Both the position numbers and the translations under genes were made by a program. From positions 293,090,966 to 293,154,965 of the forward strand of contig CM057009.1 of NCBI GenBank assembly GCA_029891345.1: a stretch of 64,000 bases of DNA, given 5' to 3'. The first letter of the stretch is position 1; each line of letters opens with the position of its first letter. This document shows positions 4,572-52,157 of the stretch, piece by piece. Source of the stretch: Dryococelus australis. Taxonomy: Eukaryota > Arthropoda > Insecta > Phasmatodea > Phasmatidae. Below the pieces are notes generated by a model. It was not told where the DNA came from. It saw nothing but the letters and a program-made list of their open reading frames with translations, and did not search any database.

Positions 4572-4805
4572 GTGGCTAAGCGGTTAGACTGCTCGCCTTC
4601 CACCAAGGCGAACCTGGTTCACTCCGGGATTTTCGCATGTGGAAATCGTACCGAACGATGCCGCTAGTCGGCGGGTTTTCTTGTGTATCTCCCGTCCCCC
4701 CCCCCGCCCTTGCATTCCAGCGCTGCTCCATCCCCACCTCACTTCACCCACTTCGGCTCTCAAGACCTCGATGTTAAGAGCCGCCCAATTCTCTTCACTC
4801 ACTCG
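4572..4805 (+). mobile_element. tRNA-derived SINE, copy 1
   Basis: The head carries RNA polymerase III promoter-like boxes: an A box (TGGCTAAGCGGTTAG) and a B-box region (GGTTCACTCC) about 45 bp downstream. The body shares ACGATGCCGCTAGTCGG, GCCCTTGCATTCCAGCGCTG and AAGAGCCG with the copies at 10424, 36156 (reverse) and 49112. The insert is flanked by perfect 11-bp target-site duplications CGTGAAATACT at 4561-4571 and 4806-4816. The 3' tail ends in TTCACTC-type repeats rather than poly(A), so the partner LINE probably recognises that tail. Non-coding. Confidence 0.9.
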
Positions 4806-4816
4806 CGTGAAATACT

Positions 4817-7800
4817 TCCCGCCAGACGGCCGCCATGACGCGATGTCCTTATTGAAGCCATGTGTTTGAAGTGTTGACAGAACGGAAACTCTTCAGAGCG
4901 AAGCGTGGTGTAACCTGATCCTGCTTAGCTTGGAAGAAATAATGACGGCCAGGTTGGCGGGAATGTGTCGCGGGGACCCCTCAGAGCTATGGGAGTCCTG
5001 GGCAGGGAGGAGCTTGCTGTAGGGGCTTCGCTAATGATGTGGCAGCTGGTGGCAATTGTCGTGCGTGGCGCCAGACGTTGTACGCGATGTTGGCTAGCAT
5101 GGCAACACGTCACGAGGGCCGTACTGCCGCCTGCTCTAGGAAGGTCCTTTCCAGCTATTTGTGGCCGTTCCAAAAATGCAATAGTTAACGTCGCGTTGCC
5201 AACTATCCCGCATTGTACGCCATTTCCCGCATCCTGGCCTTGAAACAATGATATTTTAAGGGCAGTAAATCCCTGTAGAATTATGTTTATAAGTATCCTC
5301 CCATAAATTCGGTTTCAGGAGGTGCAGTACAATTTTTGGCACGACGAAGCATGAATAATACCTTTCTTAATGTTCTTGGATTGTTACAGCTTCTCTGCAT
5401 TTGATATTTTCTAACTTGTAACATCTGAGGTAAAATACTTAATTCTTTTGTGGATGACTATACAGAGCTCATAATAGCTACGGCAGTCGAACAGAACAAA
5501 TTCCAGACATCGCATTATGTTATACCTTATGCCATGTTGTCTATCCACATTTGTGGTAACCACTCGAAAAAAAATAACAGAATGGCGGGGCCTGGTTCCT
5601 CTTAAGGTTAATCTCTAGAGGTAGTGATTTTTAGGTTAAAAAATGAGTACACGGTAGACTCCAATTGTATTACCACCCAACAGCAGCTTGTCTATCACCA
5701 TTGGTTGCTGCTGTGCAGACAGTTAACCAGCGTCAAAAAGTAATTCAGCCAGTCAAGATAAGTAAACAATTTCACAGAGTTTTGAAATAGGTATAACTTG
5801 TCTTAAAACAATTTTTCTCGAAATTTCACTACCACTAGTAATCTCACTCCGCCATATTGGATATTGGGATTCTTGGTTTTCTAGCGTGTATATGTTTTTA
5901 AAAATAAAATTTTTAAAGTATCTCTATACACAGCTAGGTATTGACGTTACACTGCAGTTAAGACAAGGGAACTACGAACTTATAATTAGGTCTACGTCAC
6001 ACTATTAACTGCTAAACATGGGCAAAATCAATACTGTAACTTAGATAATACTTAGTAGTTGAGTCGTTTTGTCTAAACTGCTGTGCAAGGTGAGTAGCTA
6101 GTTGGGAATGGCGGGGAAAATTTCCCCTTTTGCTGCAAACTCTCCTATAGCAGCTCTTATGTTCAATATACCAGCTAGTGCGGCATCCGTCGTGGTATTT
6201 GTAGTCTCGTGCGGGCGGATTTCATACCAGGTGTGGTCATAGAAACTGTCCTATTTCCCTGTGGCAAGTTTCGTACCAGCTTTCGTACTCGGCTAAGTCA
6301 CACTGCAATTTCGGAACGTAGGTTGCTCCCCTTGGCTACCACTTACTGGAAACTGGTTGCCGAAGAAACCAAAAAGGAGTACTTCATCTTTATTGTACTA
6401 CCATTAAGTTGTTACTAGTTCAAGTAACTTTAAGGTACGACAGAGACAAATATTATTGACGATGGCAATTTGTAATTACTTTTGAAAACCATACTGACAA
6501 ATTAAAAACTTAGCCACGCGATGAAAATTTTATACGAACATTTTTTCGAATAAAAATTTATATTTTGTATTTTAATACGCTCGTGGAGTTTGATTAGGTA
6601 GCGCAATGGTGGCTTCGCGATCGCAAAATGCTACATTTTTGGGTGTGAGTTCAAATCTCCTTCGATAATTTTATATACATATATATAACGTACGTATTAT
6701 CAAATTACATTTTAAAATAGTTAAATTTTTCCAATATGAAAATAACATCAATAAGCTTTAAACTGTTCTGACAGCCAACGGCAATGCAACAATAGTTTTC
6801 TTTACATATGCTTACAGAAATTACTGGCTAGTTGCAGTTCTATGAATGGGGTTCATATATATTTACTACGAACATTACGTTTATCTACGCACCCGCCGAC
6901 TATGTAAAACGTTGATACGCCAACTTCTGTCGAGTAATAGGAATTTTCCATTCCGACTTGTATAACGGCTGGTTTAGGTCGGCTTTTGTACCAGGCCTCA
7001 TAGAAGTTTGTATGCGAGCAAGTACGACAGCAATTACCGTGTAGTTACGGCTTTATGGACATAGGACGGGACGTCATATAGCTCAAACTTCTTCGAAAAA
7101 CCAACTAAATATTAATAAATACAGTTTCAATAATGTGCCACTTCCGCGATTGCAGGTATGTTTGTTCTGATGCTCTAAACCAATGGCCACATATAGTTAC
7201 AATTGACGCCGTCAGGTGTGTTGGTGTCGTTTCTTTAAAGCCGATTAACACAGAAATTCAAGTCAGACTAAAATATTAGGGCCTACTGTAGTTGCAATTA
7301 AATTTTGTTGGTGTATATGCTCAGAGAAAATGTTGACTGATGTATAATACTGACTTTTGCACATCACATATATTCTCTTGATCATTTCATTGGGGTCACA
7401 TGTCGTGTGACGAGTTGTGTTAAATTACTCGTAGGCCTGTGTTCAAATCCGAAAAAAGTCTGCAACCCTAACTTCCGACACACTGATCCAAAGCTGGAAA
7501 GGAACGAATGCAGTCTTAGACTGTGTGATGGTATTTGAATTTCCACTGTGTTTCAAAAGAAATTGATTTATGTATGCCGTTATTGTGACTTCAAGTAGCA
7601 CTTAAACTGAAAGCAAACATTCAAATAACTTTTGAAATTTGTTTGGCAGAACGTTTAAGGTTAAAATCCTCATCATGCTAAACAAAGAAGTGAAAACTTA
7701 TTTAGTGTTGGTTTTGCATCGAACGATCATATCGCGAAACCCACAAATACTGCCAAAACACTCATAAGGTGGACGAATGTGTGCAATTTGGGCTTGCGAT

Positions 7801-40877: not shown

Positions 40878-42185
40878 ACTAGAGCACTCCACTTGACTGT
40901 AAAACTTTCAGAGCTCCTTATAAAATAGTACACACACTATCAAAATTGTCATAAAAGTACGGTTTATGTTGTACATGAAAGAAGAGTGTGTATATTATGT
41001 AACCCAGTAAAATATTTTGCTAGAATTTACTTATTTAGGTGCAAAAACAATCAATTAATAATAGTATTTTTAGTTAAAAGTCAAAACACTGTATTCTCCA
41101 TTCTTCAGAAAGCACACATATTGCAATAAAAACTTTCGTCACGTAGGGAAATCATAATAACTGTGGTTGTATATAAGAAAATATTGGTAGTAATCTTAAA
41201 TAATATTTTCAATAAACACATTTATTTTATTTAAAATATTTTCAGTTATAAATTAGAATGACAACTTCCATGTCTGAAATTTATGTATCTAAAATGAACC
41301 ATAAAAATAATTTTAAAAATATTACTAATTTTTTATTACCCACAACCAAAGTAATTATTGTAAGGTTTTTATTTGATGAGGGGGGTGGGGGGATTTTCAA
41401 ATGTGCTTTCTGAAACATCCAGAATGTAAATGCACTTAAACTTTGATTATATAAAAAATCATGTTATATACTTTTTAAAATATATAATACAGTCGGCAAG
41501 TCAGTGTACGTCGAGGTGCGTGGCTGCCTACACTCCCGGCGCCAGTTATTCCAAAAACGTAATACAGTCGGCAAGTCAGTGTACGTCGAGGTGCGTGGCT
41601 GCCTACACTCCCGGCGCCAGTTATTCCAAAAACGTAATACAGTCGGCAAGTCAGTGTACGTCGAGGTGAGTGGCTGCATACACTCCCGGCGCCAGTTATT
41701 CCAAAAACGTAATACAGTCGGCAAGTCAGTGTACGTCGAGGTGCGTGGCTGCCTACACTCCCGGCGCCAGTTATTCCAAAAACGTAATACAGTCGGCAAG
41801 TCAGTGTACGTCGAGGTGCGTGGCTGCCTACACTCCCGGCGCCAGTTATTCCAAAAACGTAATACAGTCGGCAAGTCAGTGTACGTCGAGGTGCGTGGCT
41901 GCCTACACTCCCGGCGCCAGTTATTCCAAAAACGTAATACAGTCGGCAAGTCAGTGTACGTCGAGGTGCGTGGCTGCCTACACTCCCGGCGCCAGTTATT
42001 CCAAAAACGTAATAGTATTAGTAAGTAAAATCTATCAAAACAATTTTACAGTTCTACAAAATACAACCGTTCATCTTTAATAGGCAGTATAAAATGTACT
42101 ATTCTGACAACTTTGGTAGTGTGTCTCCTACTTTGTAAGAGTTCTGCGTGTTATACATCGGGATTGTGCTCCGTTGAAGACACGC
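40878..42185. mobile_element. AT-rich long-TIR element D, copy 4, carrying a minisatellite
   Basis: The left arm (CCACTAGAGCACTCCACTTG, ATAGTACACACACTATCAAA, ATTGTC) matches the reverse complement of the right arm (GACAACTTTGGTAGTGTGTC, AGAGTTCTGCGTGTTATACA, GTGCTCCGTTG). The interior is AT-rich and includes AAAGTAATTATTGTAAGG, as in copy 3. At about 1.3 kb it is roughly twice as long as the other D copies, because 525 bp of tandem repeat (41491-42015) sit in its right half. Confidence 0.78.
41491..42015. repeat. 75-bp minisatellite, seven units
   Basis: Exactly seven tandem 75-bp units (starts 41491, 41566, 41641, 41716, 41791, 41866, 41941). A unit begins AGTCGGCAAGTCAGTGTACG and ends TTATTCCAAAAACGTAATA. 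I see differences only in unit 3 (GTGAGTGGCTGCATA for GTGCGTGGCTGCCTA) and at the final base. Near-identity means recent expansion. The 75-bp period is a multiple of three and the unit lacks stops in several frames, which explains the long repetitive open frames on both strands. They are not genes. Confidence 0.97.
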
Positions 42186-44616: not shown

Positions 44617-44848
44617 TATAGGCTATTCACAGTAAAGTGACCACTTTCGAAGCTCTCTCATTTGGAATAATAGTCATTAAATATTTGTAATTGTAGCTTC
44701 GGACGTTAACTTTACAGTTCGGTGAAATACATACTGAGTTTATTGCATACATGGCAATATTTATTTTAAAAAGTTTCGTAAGGATAAAAAATGGATGATA
44801 GGAAAAATGTAAATAGAGCTTCAAAAGTGCTCAGTTTATCGTGAACGG
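44617..44848 (+). mobile_element. MITE, type A
   Basis: The left end TATAGGCTATTCACAGTAAA and right end GTTTATCGTGAACGGTGAT are inverted (last bases diverged). The core CTCATTTGGAATAATAGTCA and ACATGGCAATATTTATTTTA is type A. Confidence 0.88.
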
Positions 44849-45041: not shown

Positions 45042-45280
45042 TATAGGCCGTTCACGATAAAGTGAGCACTTATTGAAACTGTTTCATCAGACATAATAAC
45101 CAATAATACATTTCATTGTGGCCTCAGGCATTTGGTTTTGTGTATGGTGAATTTATACACTGTGTTTATTTACTTACGTGGCAGGGTTTACATTAGCAAG
45201 TGGTGGAAGGATACAAATTGGTCGAAAGAAAAAAGGAACCAGTGCTTGAAAAGTGCTCACTTTACCGTGAACGGCCTATA
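45042..45280 (+). mobile_element. MITE, type A (subfamily A2)
   Basis: The ends are near-perfect inverses: TATAGGCCGTTCACGATAAA and TTTACCGTGAACGGCCTATA. The core TCAGACATAATAACCAATAA is shared with 42189. It lies 50 bp left of the Kolobok element, whose TIR is unrelated. Confidence 0.92.
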
Positions 45281-45333
45281 GCTCCGTTACCGACGAAAAG
45301 ACTTGCGCGCTAGTTTAGGGCCCTCCACGTTAA

Positions 45334-45353
45334 AGGAGACAACAGCACAAAAA
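45334..45353 (+). repeat. Kolobok left TIR
   Basis: AGGAGACAACAGCAC followed by AAAAA, preceded by TTAA. It pairs with 48791-48810 with one mismatch. Confidence 0.92.
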
Positions 45354-45461
45354 TCATGTTCGATTAATACTAAAGAAGATATTTGGACGATTTCAAGGGT
45401 ATATTTACATTTTCTGCGCGCCACTTTGAACAGCCGCTACTCGAGGAAACGCGAGGAGCTG

Positions 45462-45469
45462 TGACGTCA
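45462..45469. promoter_or_regulatory. CRE-like palindrome, left subterminal
   Basis: TGACGTCA lies about 130 bp upstream of the transposase ATG (45593) in a GC-rich context (GCTGTGACGTCACTACGCCA). The same motif, mirrored, lies upstream of the second gene at 48662-48669. A shared CREB/ATF-type promoter element for both transposon genes is an inference. Confidence 0.55.
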
Positions 45470-45515
45470 CTACGCCATCCGACTCCGCGGGTTGCCGGTC
45501 TGCTGCGCCTGCCGC

Positions 45516-45516
<1 letters not shown>

Positions 45517-45549
<33 letters not shown>
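45517..45549. repeat. (ATT)n microsatellite
   Basis: About eleven ATT units in the 5' leader of the Kolobok transposase gene. Confidence 0.97.
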
Positions 45550-45592
45550 CATCAGTTTGCCGGTTGTTTCGCGATTCGCGAAGGTTGTGAAA

Positions 45593-47682
45593 ATGCCTGC
45601 GTGTATTGCCTACGGTTGTAGTAATACGACTAATAAGAGTGACATCTGTAAGCAGCAAGGGATACATTTCCACAGACTTCCAAACCGCAGCAAATCACCG
45701 AGAAGGTTCGCCAGATGGGTTTCATTGTGTTAGCGGAAGAATTCTTCTCCGGGTAAGAGTGCTACATTGCATTTCAAACTTACAGACTATAACGAAACCC
45801 AAAAGTTAAAAATGAAGTTGCTGCCCGAAGAAAAACTCCAAGGACGTAAACTTAAACCTGGAACCGTTCCTACAGTTACAACAATTGAAAAGTCACTTGG
45901 AGAATGTAGTTCAATAGCGGGGACGAAGAAACGTAAAGAGGTCATGGGTGCATTAATCGATAATAATGATCGAGCATTGAATCACTATGATAACTGTAAT
46001 GTACGTAGTGGAAATGAAACTGCTGTTACGAACACGCAACTACATTGCATCGAAACAGTGCGAACTAGGCTGTGGAGTTGCTAGAAAATATTTAGTCTTA
46101 GAATCTACAGCACGTGAATCAACCTGTGGAAGCGGTGATTTGAATGACAGTTTTTATGAACCAGATAACATGTTTGGTACAGATCGTAACATTAGTGATA
46201 CAGGTAGTGAAAATGTAGAGGGCAACGAAGAAAGTGAAGTTGGCGAAACAGAAAGTGAGTATCTATTTGTTTCATGGACATGTTTACTAGCTCATTTTCA
46301 GATTTGTTACATTTGTAAAGCCGAAGTGATAAACATTTCACGTTATTTTAGAGGGACTATGTTGTGTGTAAAATTTATTTGCGAGTGTGGTAATGAATCG
46401 GCTCGGTATTCGCAGCCAGTGAATGGAAAACAACTACAAGGAAATGCTCTAATAGCGTCAGAATTGTTGTTGTCTGGCATTCTGTTTGAGCCATTCCTGT
46501 CTTTCTGAAAATCAATTAAATTACATATGTTTTCACGTACAGTATTAGACAAGATTAGTACAGTAACTAGGTCAGTCGTCAAGAGGTTTTGGAAAGAAGA
46601 AAAGCAAAAAATATATATATATTTGTACTGAGAATTAGAAATAAACCCGTGTGGTTAGCTGGAGATGGCCAATACGACTCTCCCGGGTTTTCTGCCAAAT
46701 ATTTTGTGTATTCACTTATGGATTTGGATACAGGCCTTGTTGTTGATTTCGAACTTGTTCAAAAAGGAATGATAAAGGATGAATTAGAAAGAGCTACCTG
46801 CGAAAACATAATGGAAAAGTTTGTAAATAAAGAAAACTGTAATGTAAAGCTATTCTTTTCAGACAGACACAAAGGAATAATATATTTATTCAAAACGCGG
46901 TTTCCGAATATTGAATATTGAAAACGAATTTGATGTGTGGCGTGTTTCTAAGAGCCTTATGAAGAAAATCAAGGCTCTAGATAAAAAAACACTCCGAAAT
47001 TCAGGCCTGGAAAGCCAGCATAAATAATCATTTATTGTGGTCAGCACAAATATGTAATGGTGACAGCTCTGTTTTAGTTTATAAATATATATCAATACTA
47101 CATCACATGAAAAATGAACATAAGTGGCTAGAAAATGGGGAATAAAAGTCCTGCGAACATAACGAACTATCAGAAGACGAGGAAAAAATAAATTGTGGTT
47201 GAATGGACATTCAAGTGCATATCAAGCCCTAAAGAAAATCATTTTAGACAAAAGTTTTTAAAAGACGTAGAACATATAAAACATTATGCACATACGGGAA
47301 GCCTAGGGAGTTACCACAATCTTCGCCTGAAATACGCTCCAAAAAGGAGTGCATTTTTCATACAGTGGTTTAGAACTTAGGTCAATTATTGCTGTACTGG
47401 ACCATAACTGGAACATAAATAAAGACAAAGTTGGTGTGAAAACCGTTCTCGAAGTTATCGCGTAGTTGGGTGATTAAAAATAAATATCATGTTTCAAATG
47501 ATGGGTGGGAGAAAGAAATAATGAGGATCATCAGGAACCGCCTGGAATCAGGCAGTAGAAGAATATCTGCAGAACCGTAAGTTCTTGATCTGTCGCTGCC
47601 TAAGAACATTTCTCCGACGCCCTGCCCTTCCATTGATGTTTTGAAAACGAAGCGCTTCTCCCGATTTAATCTGCCAAATTAA
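45593..47682 (+). pseudogene. THAP-domain DDE transposase (Kolobok type), decayed
   Basis: In its family this nuclear enzyme binds the element's ends and moves it by cut-and-paste. The start ATG at 45593 opens a THAP-type C2CH zinc finger: MPACIAYGCSN with C4 and C9, GIHFHRLPN, W, then LKPGTVPT about 80 residues in. Further on come LIASELLLSGILFEPFL, the catalytic core with GDGQYDSPGFSAKY (D at 46664), LFFSDRHKG (D at 46862), NEFDVWRVSKSLMKKIKA and HTGSLGSYHN at about 47290-47315. The last in-frame stop (TAA 47680-47682) follows RFSRFNLPN. The span equals about 697 codons. The frame is broken by an early TAG within the THAP domain (45732), by several frame changes (about 46080, 46510, 46920, 47160-47240) and by further stops. 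Related proteins usually read HTG-LE--HN here, so G at 47306 may replace the third acidic residue. Poly(A) signal AATAAA at 47783. Confidence 0.85.
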
Positions 47683-47782
47683 AAAGGTAGGCAAAATTTT
47701 TACATATAACATTCAGTGTGTGTTTGTTATATGCATGCCTATACATTGCTATAAAAAGGCATTTCCTCATTTGTTTTAAAAT

Positions 47783-47788
47783 AATAAA
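47783..47788 (+). terminator. Poly(A) signal of the transposase gene
   Basis: AATAAA about 100 bp after the transposase stop, before the convergent gene begins. Confidence 0.6.
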
Positions 47789-47924
47789 TTTTTAATTTAC
47801 TATTAGTAACTGTCCTCACGTTATGACTACCTTGCAGATATAACAAAACTTTAAATTTGTAGATAGCGGCCATCCATAGCGTAATTATAACAGCGATATG
47901 ATTAACTGTTCGTTCGAAAAATGA

Positions 47925-47930
47925 TTTATT
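47925..47930 (-). terminator. Poly(A) signal of the P2X7C-like gene
   Basis: Minus-strand AATAAA (plus TTTATT) 78 bp downstream of the stop of the minus-strand gene. The two signals keep the convergent transcripts almost non-overlapping. Confidence 0.6.
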
Positions 47931-48007
47931 ATTTTAATTACATCTCTACCAACAGATTTTAAATGTCACATATTACAAAAATACAAAGCTGTTGTTCAAT
48001 TTTCTAG

Positions 48008-48567
48008 CTACAGTTTGAAACCTGCGTAGCTGCCATCGGCCTCCGGAAATGTCTTCCTTATGACATTAACGGCACAAGATGGTAAAACAACTCTATTCCT
48101 GCAGCCGATTGCAGTCCATGAATTTACCCACGACGTAAACTGTTTATAACTGGTGTAACGCCAAGTTTTATTCTCTGGATTGGCAGCAGTTAACAAACGT
48201 TTCTTATATTTAATCTTGGTTTTCAAACTCAAATTTGTGCCTCGCCATTGTTAGTACTTCCGGGTCCGAAATCAACGTTGAAAAAGAAGGATTTTTAGTT
48301 ACACACACGAATAATTCAGATTTCATAGTTTTTACATTTTCTGACTCTCGGCAGCAGACACTTTCTTCATCAGTGTTCATTCACATACACACACACACAC
48401 ACACACACACTCTCTCTCTCTCTCACGCACACACGCGCGCGCCAAAATAACGTTCCCGTTCGCCCTGAAGTGTTTAGCGTATTCCTGTCGTTAGCACTGC
48501 CCAACTCGAGATCAGCACATGTTTTCTCTGGCTCGAACTGGTAAGGACGAATGTTTGTTGAATACAT
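48008..48567 (-). pseudogene. P2X7 receptor C-terminal (ballast) domain-like protein, transposon cargo
   Basis: This minus-strand gene lies inside the Kolobok element. From ATG at 48567 it reads MYSTNIRPYQFEPE, an opening I recall from stand-alone invertebrate 'P2X7-like' proteins. After a CA/CT/CG repeat (48386-48443) it continues with NTDEESVCCRESE (CC pair), ELFVCVTKNPSFSTLISDPE, then TWRYTSYKQFTSWVNSW, VVLPSCAVNVIRKTFPEADG and SYAGFKL, stop at 48008. Human P2X7 ends with ELCCRKKPGACITTSELF, HCAYRCYATW, LPSCCRWRIRKEFPKSEG and QYSGFK in the same order, so homology is convincing. In P2X7 this cytoplasmic region binds zinc and guanine nucleotide. In a transposon its role is unknown. There is no transmembrane segment. 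Damage: the microsatellite has replaced the first cysteine motif region (WC-CG-C in relatives) and one frame change lies near 48225. Confidence 0.85.
48386..48443. repeat. Compound (CA)n-(CT)n-(CG)n microsatellite inside a coding sequence
   Basis: About 13 CA units, seven CT units, then CACACGCGCGCG. It lies within the P2X7C-like gene at the position where relatives have a cysteine motif. Confidence 0.95.
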
Positions 48568-48661
48568 TTGAACGCGGCGACAAACCGCACAGTTAGTTAC
48601 CTGCAACCACAGCTGTGCGCGTGGCGTGGCGGCAGTCGGCCGGCTGACGACATGGCGGCAG

Positions 48662-48669
48662 TGACGTCA
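48662..48669. promoter_or_regulatory. CRE-like palindrome, right subterminal
   Basis: TGACGTCA about 95 bp upstream of the minus-strand ATG (48567), with GGCGGCAGTGACGTCACGCG around it. It mirrors the left copy at 45462. Confidence 0.55.
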
Positions 48670-48790
48670 CGCGCTACTCAGCTTTTCGCTTGTATTTCGG
48701 GAACCACTGAAGAAGACAACGTTCAATAAACGGCGTTGTGTTTCTAATTTTTTTTCTGTTAATTATCTAAAACTTTTAACTGCTAATGTG

Positions 48791-48810
48791 TTTTTGTGCT
48801 GTGGTCTCCT
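48791..48810 (-). repeat. Kolobok right TIR
   Basis: TTTTT followed by GTGCTGTGGTCTCCT, then TTAA. It is the inverse of the left TIR with one mismatch. Confidence 0.92.
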
Positions 48811-49111
48811 TTAAGGCGATAATGAATGTGATGATGCGCATAGCTGTGTCGCCCTTTGTGATTCTAGGTACCGAACATCCAAAAACACTTTAAAACAGGC
48901 GGTGTCCTTCAAACGTTGAGTTTATCTGACCGGAAAGGGGGGGGGGGGGGGGGTTAGAAATGAAGACTCATTTTTCACAGCTGCATGTGTATACAGTCTA
49001 CATGGAATTTGATCGTTGCCACGCTTCTTAAATTGGTGTACAGCCCTAAAGGAACATTGATGTTAAATTGTTCGGTTATAGAATGAAGTAAACATTATCC
49101 TCCATTTTGTG

Positions 49112-51038: not shown

Positions 51039-52157
51039 CACAGTCGAATCACATGATTATAACCACCTGCAAGTATCCAGAGTAACCGCCCATTGCAGAA
51101 CGGACAGCAGTTAGACGAGCTGGCAGTGACTCAGCCAGGTGCTGATAGGTGCTGATAGGTCTGCACTAGTATCTGAGCCAGGCTGTCTGCTGTGAGTCCC
51201 ACAACTGTTGAAGGGTATATGGTGGGGGAGACAGACGGCAAACATGATGATAGAGGTGATCCCACAGATGTTCAATTGAATTGAGATCGCAGCTATTTGA
51301 GTGCCAGCGAAGAACTTTGGAGTCTTGATCGTGCTCTTTCAGCCACATCACGTGCAGACACTTCTAGCAGTGTGGCAAGGCGCATTATCGTGCTGAAAAA
51401 TCCCATCCTCCCGAGGAAAGACAATCATCATACACGGATGGACGTGATCGCCGAGGATGAATTCATAACCAAATCGATCAAGAGTGCCTTCCTCGCGGAT
51501 GATGGGACCTAGAGAATACCAGACAACATTCCCCAGACCATATAACACCGTCTTGCGTTCGACCAGCAATGAATGCAGGGTGTTGGTTCTCGCCGGACAC
51601 TGACGTCCATCCGTTCTATGGAGCTGAAAACGTGACTTGTTGGAGAAGATTACCCGTCGCCAATTAGCAGCGGTCCAGTCGCCATACTGTCGAACGAATT
51701 CCAGTCGTTTTCGTCGATGCACCTGTTTTAGATTGGGTGCAGTTAGCCTCCGTCTACTCTGGAGCCGCATTCGCAGGAGGGTGACACGTGTCTGGATGCC
51801 CTCTGGTTCATTTGGACAGTGAGCTCTTCCACTGTAGTAAGTCCTTGGTCTTCACGCACAGTCTAGTCGACGTTCACCTCGGACATCAATGGCGCTTGGA
51901 GCTCCGCAGTTCCCACGACGGCTATTCCCAACAGCGCCATTCGTCCACCCACGATACACCTTGCCCCGAAAGCAGATGATCAACCCTTTTTGCAACTTGG
52001 TTGACTCACTTCCTTTACCCATGACAGCAGAAAGTGCACTGTGTACGGTCGCATTGTATACCCGCTTCATCAGCCCACATCACGGGCTATACGTCATGAG
52101 CTACGCGCTGCAGATGACACTTCTAGCAGGTGTTCATAATAATGTGATTCGATTGTC
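51039..52157 (-). mobile_element. Tc1-like DNA transposon, decayed
   Basis: Inverted ends: the left CACAGTCGAATCACATGATT matches the reverse complement of the right end, GACAATCGAATCACATTATT. TA dinucleotides flank both sides (51037-51038 and 52158-52159), the Tc1/mariner target duplication. The 1,119-bp element carries one minus-strand transposase gene, now broken. A 10-bp unit, GGTGCTGATA, is tandemly doubled at about 51139-51158. Confidence 0.88.
51061..52023 (-). pseudogene. Tc1-family (DD34E-type) transposase, decayed
   Basis: Cut-and-paste transposase of the nucleus, read on the minus strand. The ATG at 52023 gives MGKGSESTKLQKGLI, the usual start of the N-terminal helix-turn-helix in this family. 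The following part is poorly preserved and shorter than usual. The catalytic half (51770-51348) reads RRKRLEFVRQYGDW, NWRRVIFSNKSRFQLHRTDG, GGIFQHDNAPCHTAR-like, then in another frame VLRWHSNSCDLNSIEHLWDH. The first catalytic Asp (normally SDES) is Asn here (SNKS), while the second Asp (HDNAPCH) and the Glu (IEHLWD) remain. There is one frame change at about 51350 and an in-frame stop at about 51165, after which ESLPARLTAVRNG continues. The region spans about 320 codons against roughly 340 usual. Inactive. Confidence 0.88.

Follow-up and report, generated by a model that had tools for sequence, protein, structure and literature searches.

A probable decayed Kolobok transposon with a P2X7 ballast-like gene in the genome of Dryococelus australis

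How does a gene resembling the C-terminal ballast domain of the vertebrate P2X7 receptor come to lie within a transposable element of an insect, and is it a stray passenger or a regular part of that element? The question is raised by a window of 64,000 nucleotides (the whole stretch of DNA analysed here) from Dryococelus australis, in which a broken P2RX7_C gene occupies the minus strand at 48008-48567, inside a TTAA-flanked element (Table 1). It appears very probable that the window copy is a decayed autonomous-type Kolobok DNA transposon of the Kol0 lineage, with a transposase gene and a convergent gene for KolX, a protein with the ballast domain, in a large insect genome. Because both genes are broken, this copy is immobile by itself.

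The inverted ends of the element are 24 bp long, match at 23 of 24 positions and both begin with TTAA, and they enclose a putative THAP-DDE transposase. The target-site duplication occupies positions 45330-45333 and 48811-48814, and inside it the element starts with AGGAGAC and ends with GTCTCCT, which gives 5'-RR/YY-3' ends. For comparison, 20 loci of 10 kb each were fetched, namely the 20 best P2RX7_C places besides the window's own. Over the 16 positions that follow TTAA, the window element matches at 15, compared to the best scores of 10-13 in the 20 reversed loci. A de novo search for terminal inverted repeats (TIRs) in the 20 loci themselves yielded best scores of 10-13 of 16, the same as the range of this reversed-sequence null, so that TIRs can be claimed generally only for the window's own family. 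By eye, the ends in L032 and L045 resemble those of Kolobok.

The N-terminal domain of the transposase is recognised by the Pfam THAP profile with an E-value of 1.9e-9 when the stop is replaced by X, and of 4.7e-5 for the first piece alone. The DDE pieces match no transposase model in Pfam. They contain the motif GDGQYDSPG, of the GDGxxDSPG type that we take to be a Kolobok hallmark, and the relatives show GDGQ[FY]DSPG, D-x-W-H and LES[YF]H-type motifs. The third catalytic position, in the 15 loci with a match to this region, is Glu in 13, Asp in L046 and unclear in L042 (Ser, in a gapped match). The marks of Kolobok, i.e. the ends, the THAP domain and the transposase motifs, are thus partly read from relatives. 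According to Kojima and Bao (2022, PMC9587614), Kolobok traits include TTAA, RR/YY ends, the C/DxxH signature and a zinc finger after C/DxxH; the transposases of Xenopus Koloboks have DDE, THAP and H2CH motifs, and ten full-length copies are AG-ended (PMC6004289). The predicted assignment to Kolobok is by motif, and that to Kol0 is by the presence of KolX rather than by a tree against Repbase families. A piggyBac transposon, which would likewise account for the TTAA flanks and a few families of which encode a KolX-like protein (PMC9587614), has next to no probability as an alternative: the window ends are AG...CT, as in Kolobok, a THAP domain is present, the relatives show the transposase motifs listed above, there is no piggyBac match in Pfam (a weak point, given that zero transposase models matched), and the piggyBac versions of KolX are without most of the seven cysteines (PMC9587614), whereas the pattern CxCxxC...CC is kept in 10 of the 20 fetched loci.

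Table 1. Coordinates of the element and of its recognisable parts in the window
Feature	Coordinates	Strand	Basis
Whole element, read as Kolobok, TTAA copies included, 3485 bp	45330-48814		inverted ends 96% complementary
Left TTAA and terminal inverted repeat, element start AG	45330-45353	+	
THAP DNA-binding domain of transposase, stop-broken, with GTVPTV (AVPTIF-like box, 45860-45877)	45593-46084	+	Pfam THAP
Transposase piece, first catalytic Asp region GDGQYDSPG and second FFSDRH	46571-46921	+	motifs
C/DxxH signature site, here DVWR	46926-46946	+	D-x-W-H pattern in 8/20 relatives
H..C..H..H zinc-finger-like stretch, between second Asp and last acidic residue	47020-47127	+	similar stretch in relatives
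Third catalytic region, non-acidic in window copy	47249-47380	+	relatives
KolX C-terminal piece, 80-aa open frame (contains NKTWRYTSYKQF...LPSCAVNVIRKTFPEADGSYAGFKL)	48008-48250	-	Pfam P2RX7_C and P2X7 chains
KolX middle piece (MNTDEESVCCRE...FVCVTKNPSF...FENQD), CC and C of the ballast zinc set	48213-48380	-	no Pfam P2RX7_C match alone
(CA)n microsatellite at first zinc-cysteine codons of KolX	48382-48410		relatives read CxCxxC there
KolX N-terminal piece (MYSTNIRPYQFEPE...; MYSTNIRPYQFEPE at 48526-48567, third frame)	48481-48567	-	P[YFHS]xFEP pattern in 8/20 relatives
Right terminal inverted repeat and TTAA, element end CT	48791-48814	-	

The KolX gene is convergent with the transposase gene, the former being encoded on the minus and the latter on the plus strand. 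The peptides that the earlier note had taken for a P2X7-like series do occur at 48008-48567 in the order given, spread over two frames, and a further N-terminal piece lies in a third; the order of the pieces is the same in the relatives. A comparison with the Pfam P2RX7_C profile, which had been proposed as a check of that assignment, bears it out: the 80-residue C-terminal frame alone matches with an E-value of 5.3e-11 and a score of 43.2 bits, against a cut-off of 23.5. The same frame identifies the solved P2X7 chains 8tr5 and 6u9v (E-value 2e-4), and all four relatives found by the C-terminal profile among solved structures (E up to 1) are P2X7. The middle piece alone has no P2RX7_C match in Pfam even at E 10, and joining it to the C-terminal piece raises the score to only 48.1 bits; the N-terminal frame has no match in a Pfam search. 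A regular expression for the C-terminal core, written post hoc with this core already known, occurs once in the window and in none of 60 random Markov-1 windows. An AlphaFold model of the 80-residue piece, made with no alignment, had a mean pLDDT of 53 and was set aside.

Four of the seven zinc cysteines are left in the window KolX (CC, C, SC) and three are gone, the motif CxCxxC being absent from the minus strand at 48300-48700. In the place where the relatives have this motif, the window contains a (CA)n repeat, which probably arose from the codons for the zinc-motif cysteines of KolX, because L046 (about 4773-4850) reads VCVCV where the motif is expected.

The genome of D. australis (3.415 Gb in 646 contigs) was searched for further copies; the counts of genome-wide matches are lower bounds and include weak matches. 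The genome also contains at least 61 matches, at E-values up to 1e-5, to the odorant receptor family 7tm_6, a mark of insects. The P2RX7_C profile has at least 85 matches at E-values up to 1, of which 79 are above the Pfam cut-off alone or together with their neighbours, and at E-values up to 0.01 there are at least 124 matches to the C-terminal piece of KolX and at least 147 to a transposase piece. When matches are merged, at least 133 KolX places and at least 127 transposase places are obtained. At 89 of these 133 KolX places a Kolobok transposase match is found within 5 kb in the tail-to-tail arrangement, with about 0.01 such places expected by chance; around the 44 KolX places left unpaired, no transposase match in any other arrangement occurs over the same distance. 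One of the paired places (contig C10, near 54046154) has an additional, oppositely placed transposase fragment. A first pairing, by the Pfam search alone, joined 62 of 79 KolX places with 62 of 127 transposase places, at a median gap of 1.09 kb. The suggestion that genes of this kind are routine transposon cargo finds support in this one genome, in the 89 of 133 KolX places that are paired. A search of viral contigs for relatives of KolX and of the transposase piece, and a search of bacterial and archaeal contigs for relatives of KolX, confirmed none.

Viewed from the transposase side, KolX lies beside 89 of the 127 places and 38 are without it; at the 38 transposase places with an identity of 69% or more across the match, a KolX match is present in 29 and absent in 9. 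Copies lacking the gene had been named in the earlier note as a sign of a one-off chance insertion, and in some copies no KolX can be detected, but an insertion of this kind does not fit the 29 of 38 closest and 89 of 127 overall that carry KolX. The partnerless places, 44 of KolX and 38 of transposase, could reflect decay, splits, deletion derivatives, chance matches or KolX-free Kolobok lineages.

The ends of the element point in the same direction. The end pattern of the window's family occurs 33 times genome-wide, compared to zero occurrences of a backward control pattern, and within 8 kb of these 33 ends there is a P2RX7_C match at 27, a transposase match at 28 and either of the two at 29, the places near the ends being hand-picked from the match lists. 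Of the 20 fetched loci, 17 have KolX tail-to-tail with one or more transposase pieces encoded on the other strand, and L037, L041 and L049 show no transposase piece. The window element can be aligned over practically its whole length with L042, L043 and L046, at an identity of about 85%; the KolX in these three is no test of linkage, because the loci were fetched through KolX.

The two genes also diverge together. The distances between KolX proteins correlate with those between transposase proteins, at a Mantel r of 0.71 for 16 of 21 rows (the window and 15 fetched loci; L035, L037, L041, L047 and L049 were left out) and of 0.68 when the closest copies are removed (n=13); for both values, none of 9999 permutations reached as high an r. 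Given also the tail-to-tail pairing at the median gap and the P2RX7_C matches near most family ends, a one-time event in which a transposon picked up a stray P2X7C-like host gene, an alternative that the single copy in the window and the transposase places with no KolX match beside them might suggest, retains virtually no probability and can be considered already refuted.

Comparison of substitutions suggests that KolX is constrained. Between families, pN/pS is 0.40 for the C-terminal piece of KolX (pN<pS in 174 of 184 pairs) and 0.48 for the middle piece (122 of 130), and the corresponding values for the two transposase pieces are 0.54 (53 of 60) and 0.47 (83 of 85). These figures, which were calculated for the loci covering at least 60% of the respective piece (20, 17, 12 and 14 of 21 rows, the window included) with stop codons skipped, are rough because pS is near saturation between families. 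For the within-family pairs (n=6), the ratio exceeds the between-family one in 5 of 6 for the C-terminal piece of KolX (range 0.27-1.12), in 3 of 6 for the middle piece (range 0.36-0.92) and in 6 of 6 for each transposase piece; this pattern appears to fit the expectation for dead copies in the case of the transposase and, less clearly, in that of KolX. Between families, at least, KolX looks constrained, and the simplest reading of these sequence comparisons is that it has been co-inherited with the transposon, and under selection there, for a long time. Thus, pairing, co-divergence and between-family constraint together argue for KolX as a long-standing part of the element rather than a one-off insertion.

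The KolX places that stand alone bear on another possibility, namely that KolX is a host (domesticated) gene, similar to Nanor, with a transposase nearby by chance. Invertebrate ballast genes have been taken as host genes, with some synteny (PMC7016195), and the 44 of 133 KolX places with no transposase match within 5 kb are compatible with such an origin. Nevertheless, it is highly unlikely for the window gene, which lies between inverted ends, is broken and has relatives at no fewer than 133 dispersed places. Moreover, some of the solitary places are themselves element remains: in C17, an exact family end is found 357 bp from the solitary KolX place at 132243049, and in L049 (4348-5874) family-like inverted ends, in which 5 and 6 of 20 letters differ, are located about 1.5 kb apart around KolX. 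The latter may be a short derivative in which KolX was retained and the transposase lost. The solitary places L037 and L041, and others with no transposase, may be element remains or host genes.

If KolX is a regular part of the element, as preferred here, the question of its role arises. The THAP domain of the transposase would bind the ends of the element, the DDE domain would cut the element out and paste it into TTAA, and KolX, a predicted small zinc-binding protein, would assist or regulate the reaction. By analogy, a putative role as a zinc-binding protein that helps the transposition complex is favoured, because the second proteins of other Kolobok lineages are nucleases or helicases (PMC9587614). 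It is somewhat unlikely that KolX is instead a regulator, e.g., one that represses the transposase or acts on the host cell: co-inheritance and constraint are predicted by helper and regulator alike, and the nucleases and helicases of the other lineages better fit, again by analogy only, a role in DNA transactions (PMC9587614).

A further proposal on the role of KolX, quite improbable at present, is that it senses guanine nucleotides as a partner of the Kolobok transposase, such that the GDP pocket of P2X7 would be a relic of the pairing of transposon ends. The P-element transposase, from a related superfamily, needs GTP, held in its own insertion domain, for end pairing and placement of the terminal base (PMC7776569), and the P2X7 ballast has a guanosine pocket (PMC7016195); in Kolobok, a nucleotide-dependent step of transposition would be supplied by KolX as a separate protein. 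At the position of rat R546, all 9 stop-free KolX pieces that were aligned (window plus 8 loci) have Arg; L043, which a stop kept out of this alignment, as with most of the other omitted loci, has His there.

The remainder of the window contains a few other features. At 41447-42045, there is a tandem array whose repeated peptide, about 25 residues long, is open in several reading frames of either strand. To the left of the element, at 45042-45280, lie two inverted arms of 30 bp with 97% complementarity, possibly another small element; a partial third arm is located at 44825. The minus-strand frame at 51348-51851 has no Pfam match at E 0.01; by eye, it resembles a Tc1/mariner transposase in its motif. 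None of six other open reading frames of the window is above the Pfam cut-off, and Rfam and tRNA scans of the window gave nothing.

The earlier note had also proposed a mobile element as the route by which the ballast domain reached P2X7. This is a good idea that has already been argued: in PMC9587614, the KolX of the Kol0 lineage is described as clearly similar to residues 476-595 of P2X7 and as having the P2X7 ballast fold, P2X7 is held to have arisen by fusion of a P2X4-like gene with KolX, and Nanor is considered another likely domesticated KolX. The thought that the link is a new finding was accordingly dropped; a literature search by title and abstract found no further paper on the connection of KolX, Kolobok and P2X7. 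Rump et al. (2020, PMC7016195) had reported ballast proteins in Ixodes and Myzus and took them as host proteins, and these ballast proteins are referred to in PMC9587614 as previously unrecognised parts of Kolobok. No arthropod is named among the Kol0 hosts stated in that paper, a list that opens with "including". The genome of an insect with KolX at many places therefore extends a known kind rather than adding a new one, and Repbase entries or supplements may already hold arthropod Kol0 elements. The present observations fit and extend the published proposal that the P2X7 tail derives from a transposon protein, in that KolX and transposase are adjacent and co-diverge at many places in an insect. 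They suggest that stand-alone "P2X7-like" genes of invertebrates should be checked for transposon ends before they are read as host genes, and the natural set of KolX variants in D. australis provides material on the role of KolX.

Among known systems, the window element is closest in kind to Kol0 with KolX (PMC9587614), with which it shares TTAA duplications, 5'-RR/YY-3' ends, a transposase of putative DDD/E type and a ballast-like second protein; compared to the published Kol0, it resides in an insect, and convergent gene order is documented here for many copies. It resembles KolobokP (PMC9587614) in that the second gene is on the complementary strand, downstream of the transposase, but the second gene of KolobokP is a His-Me nuclease and its termini are long direct repeats, whereas the window element shows only short inverted ends. 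With the ballast of vertebrate P2X7 (Pfam P2RX7_C; 6u9v, 8tr5), the window KolX aligns over the C-terminal half; rat R546, C572 and R578 (residue names as in PMC7016195) correspond to R, C and R, and H547, R574 and K583 are unmatched, partly as reported for invertebrates in PMC7016195. Unlike P2X7, the window KolX is not joined to a channel, and its copy has lost the first three zinc cysteines. Zebrafish Nanor and the invertebrate ZCD proteins (PMC7016195) are likewise stand-alone ballast domains with an N-terminal part; the gene in the window differs from them in being transposon-borne and broken.
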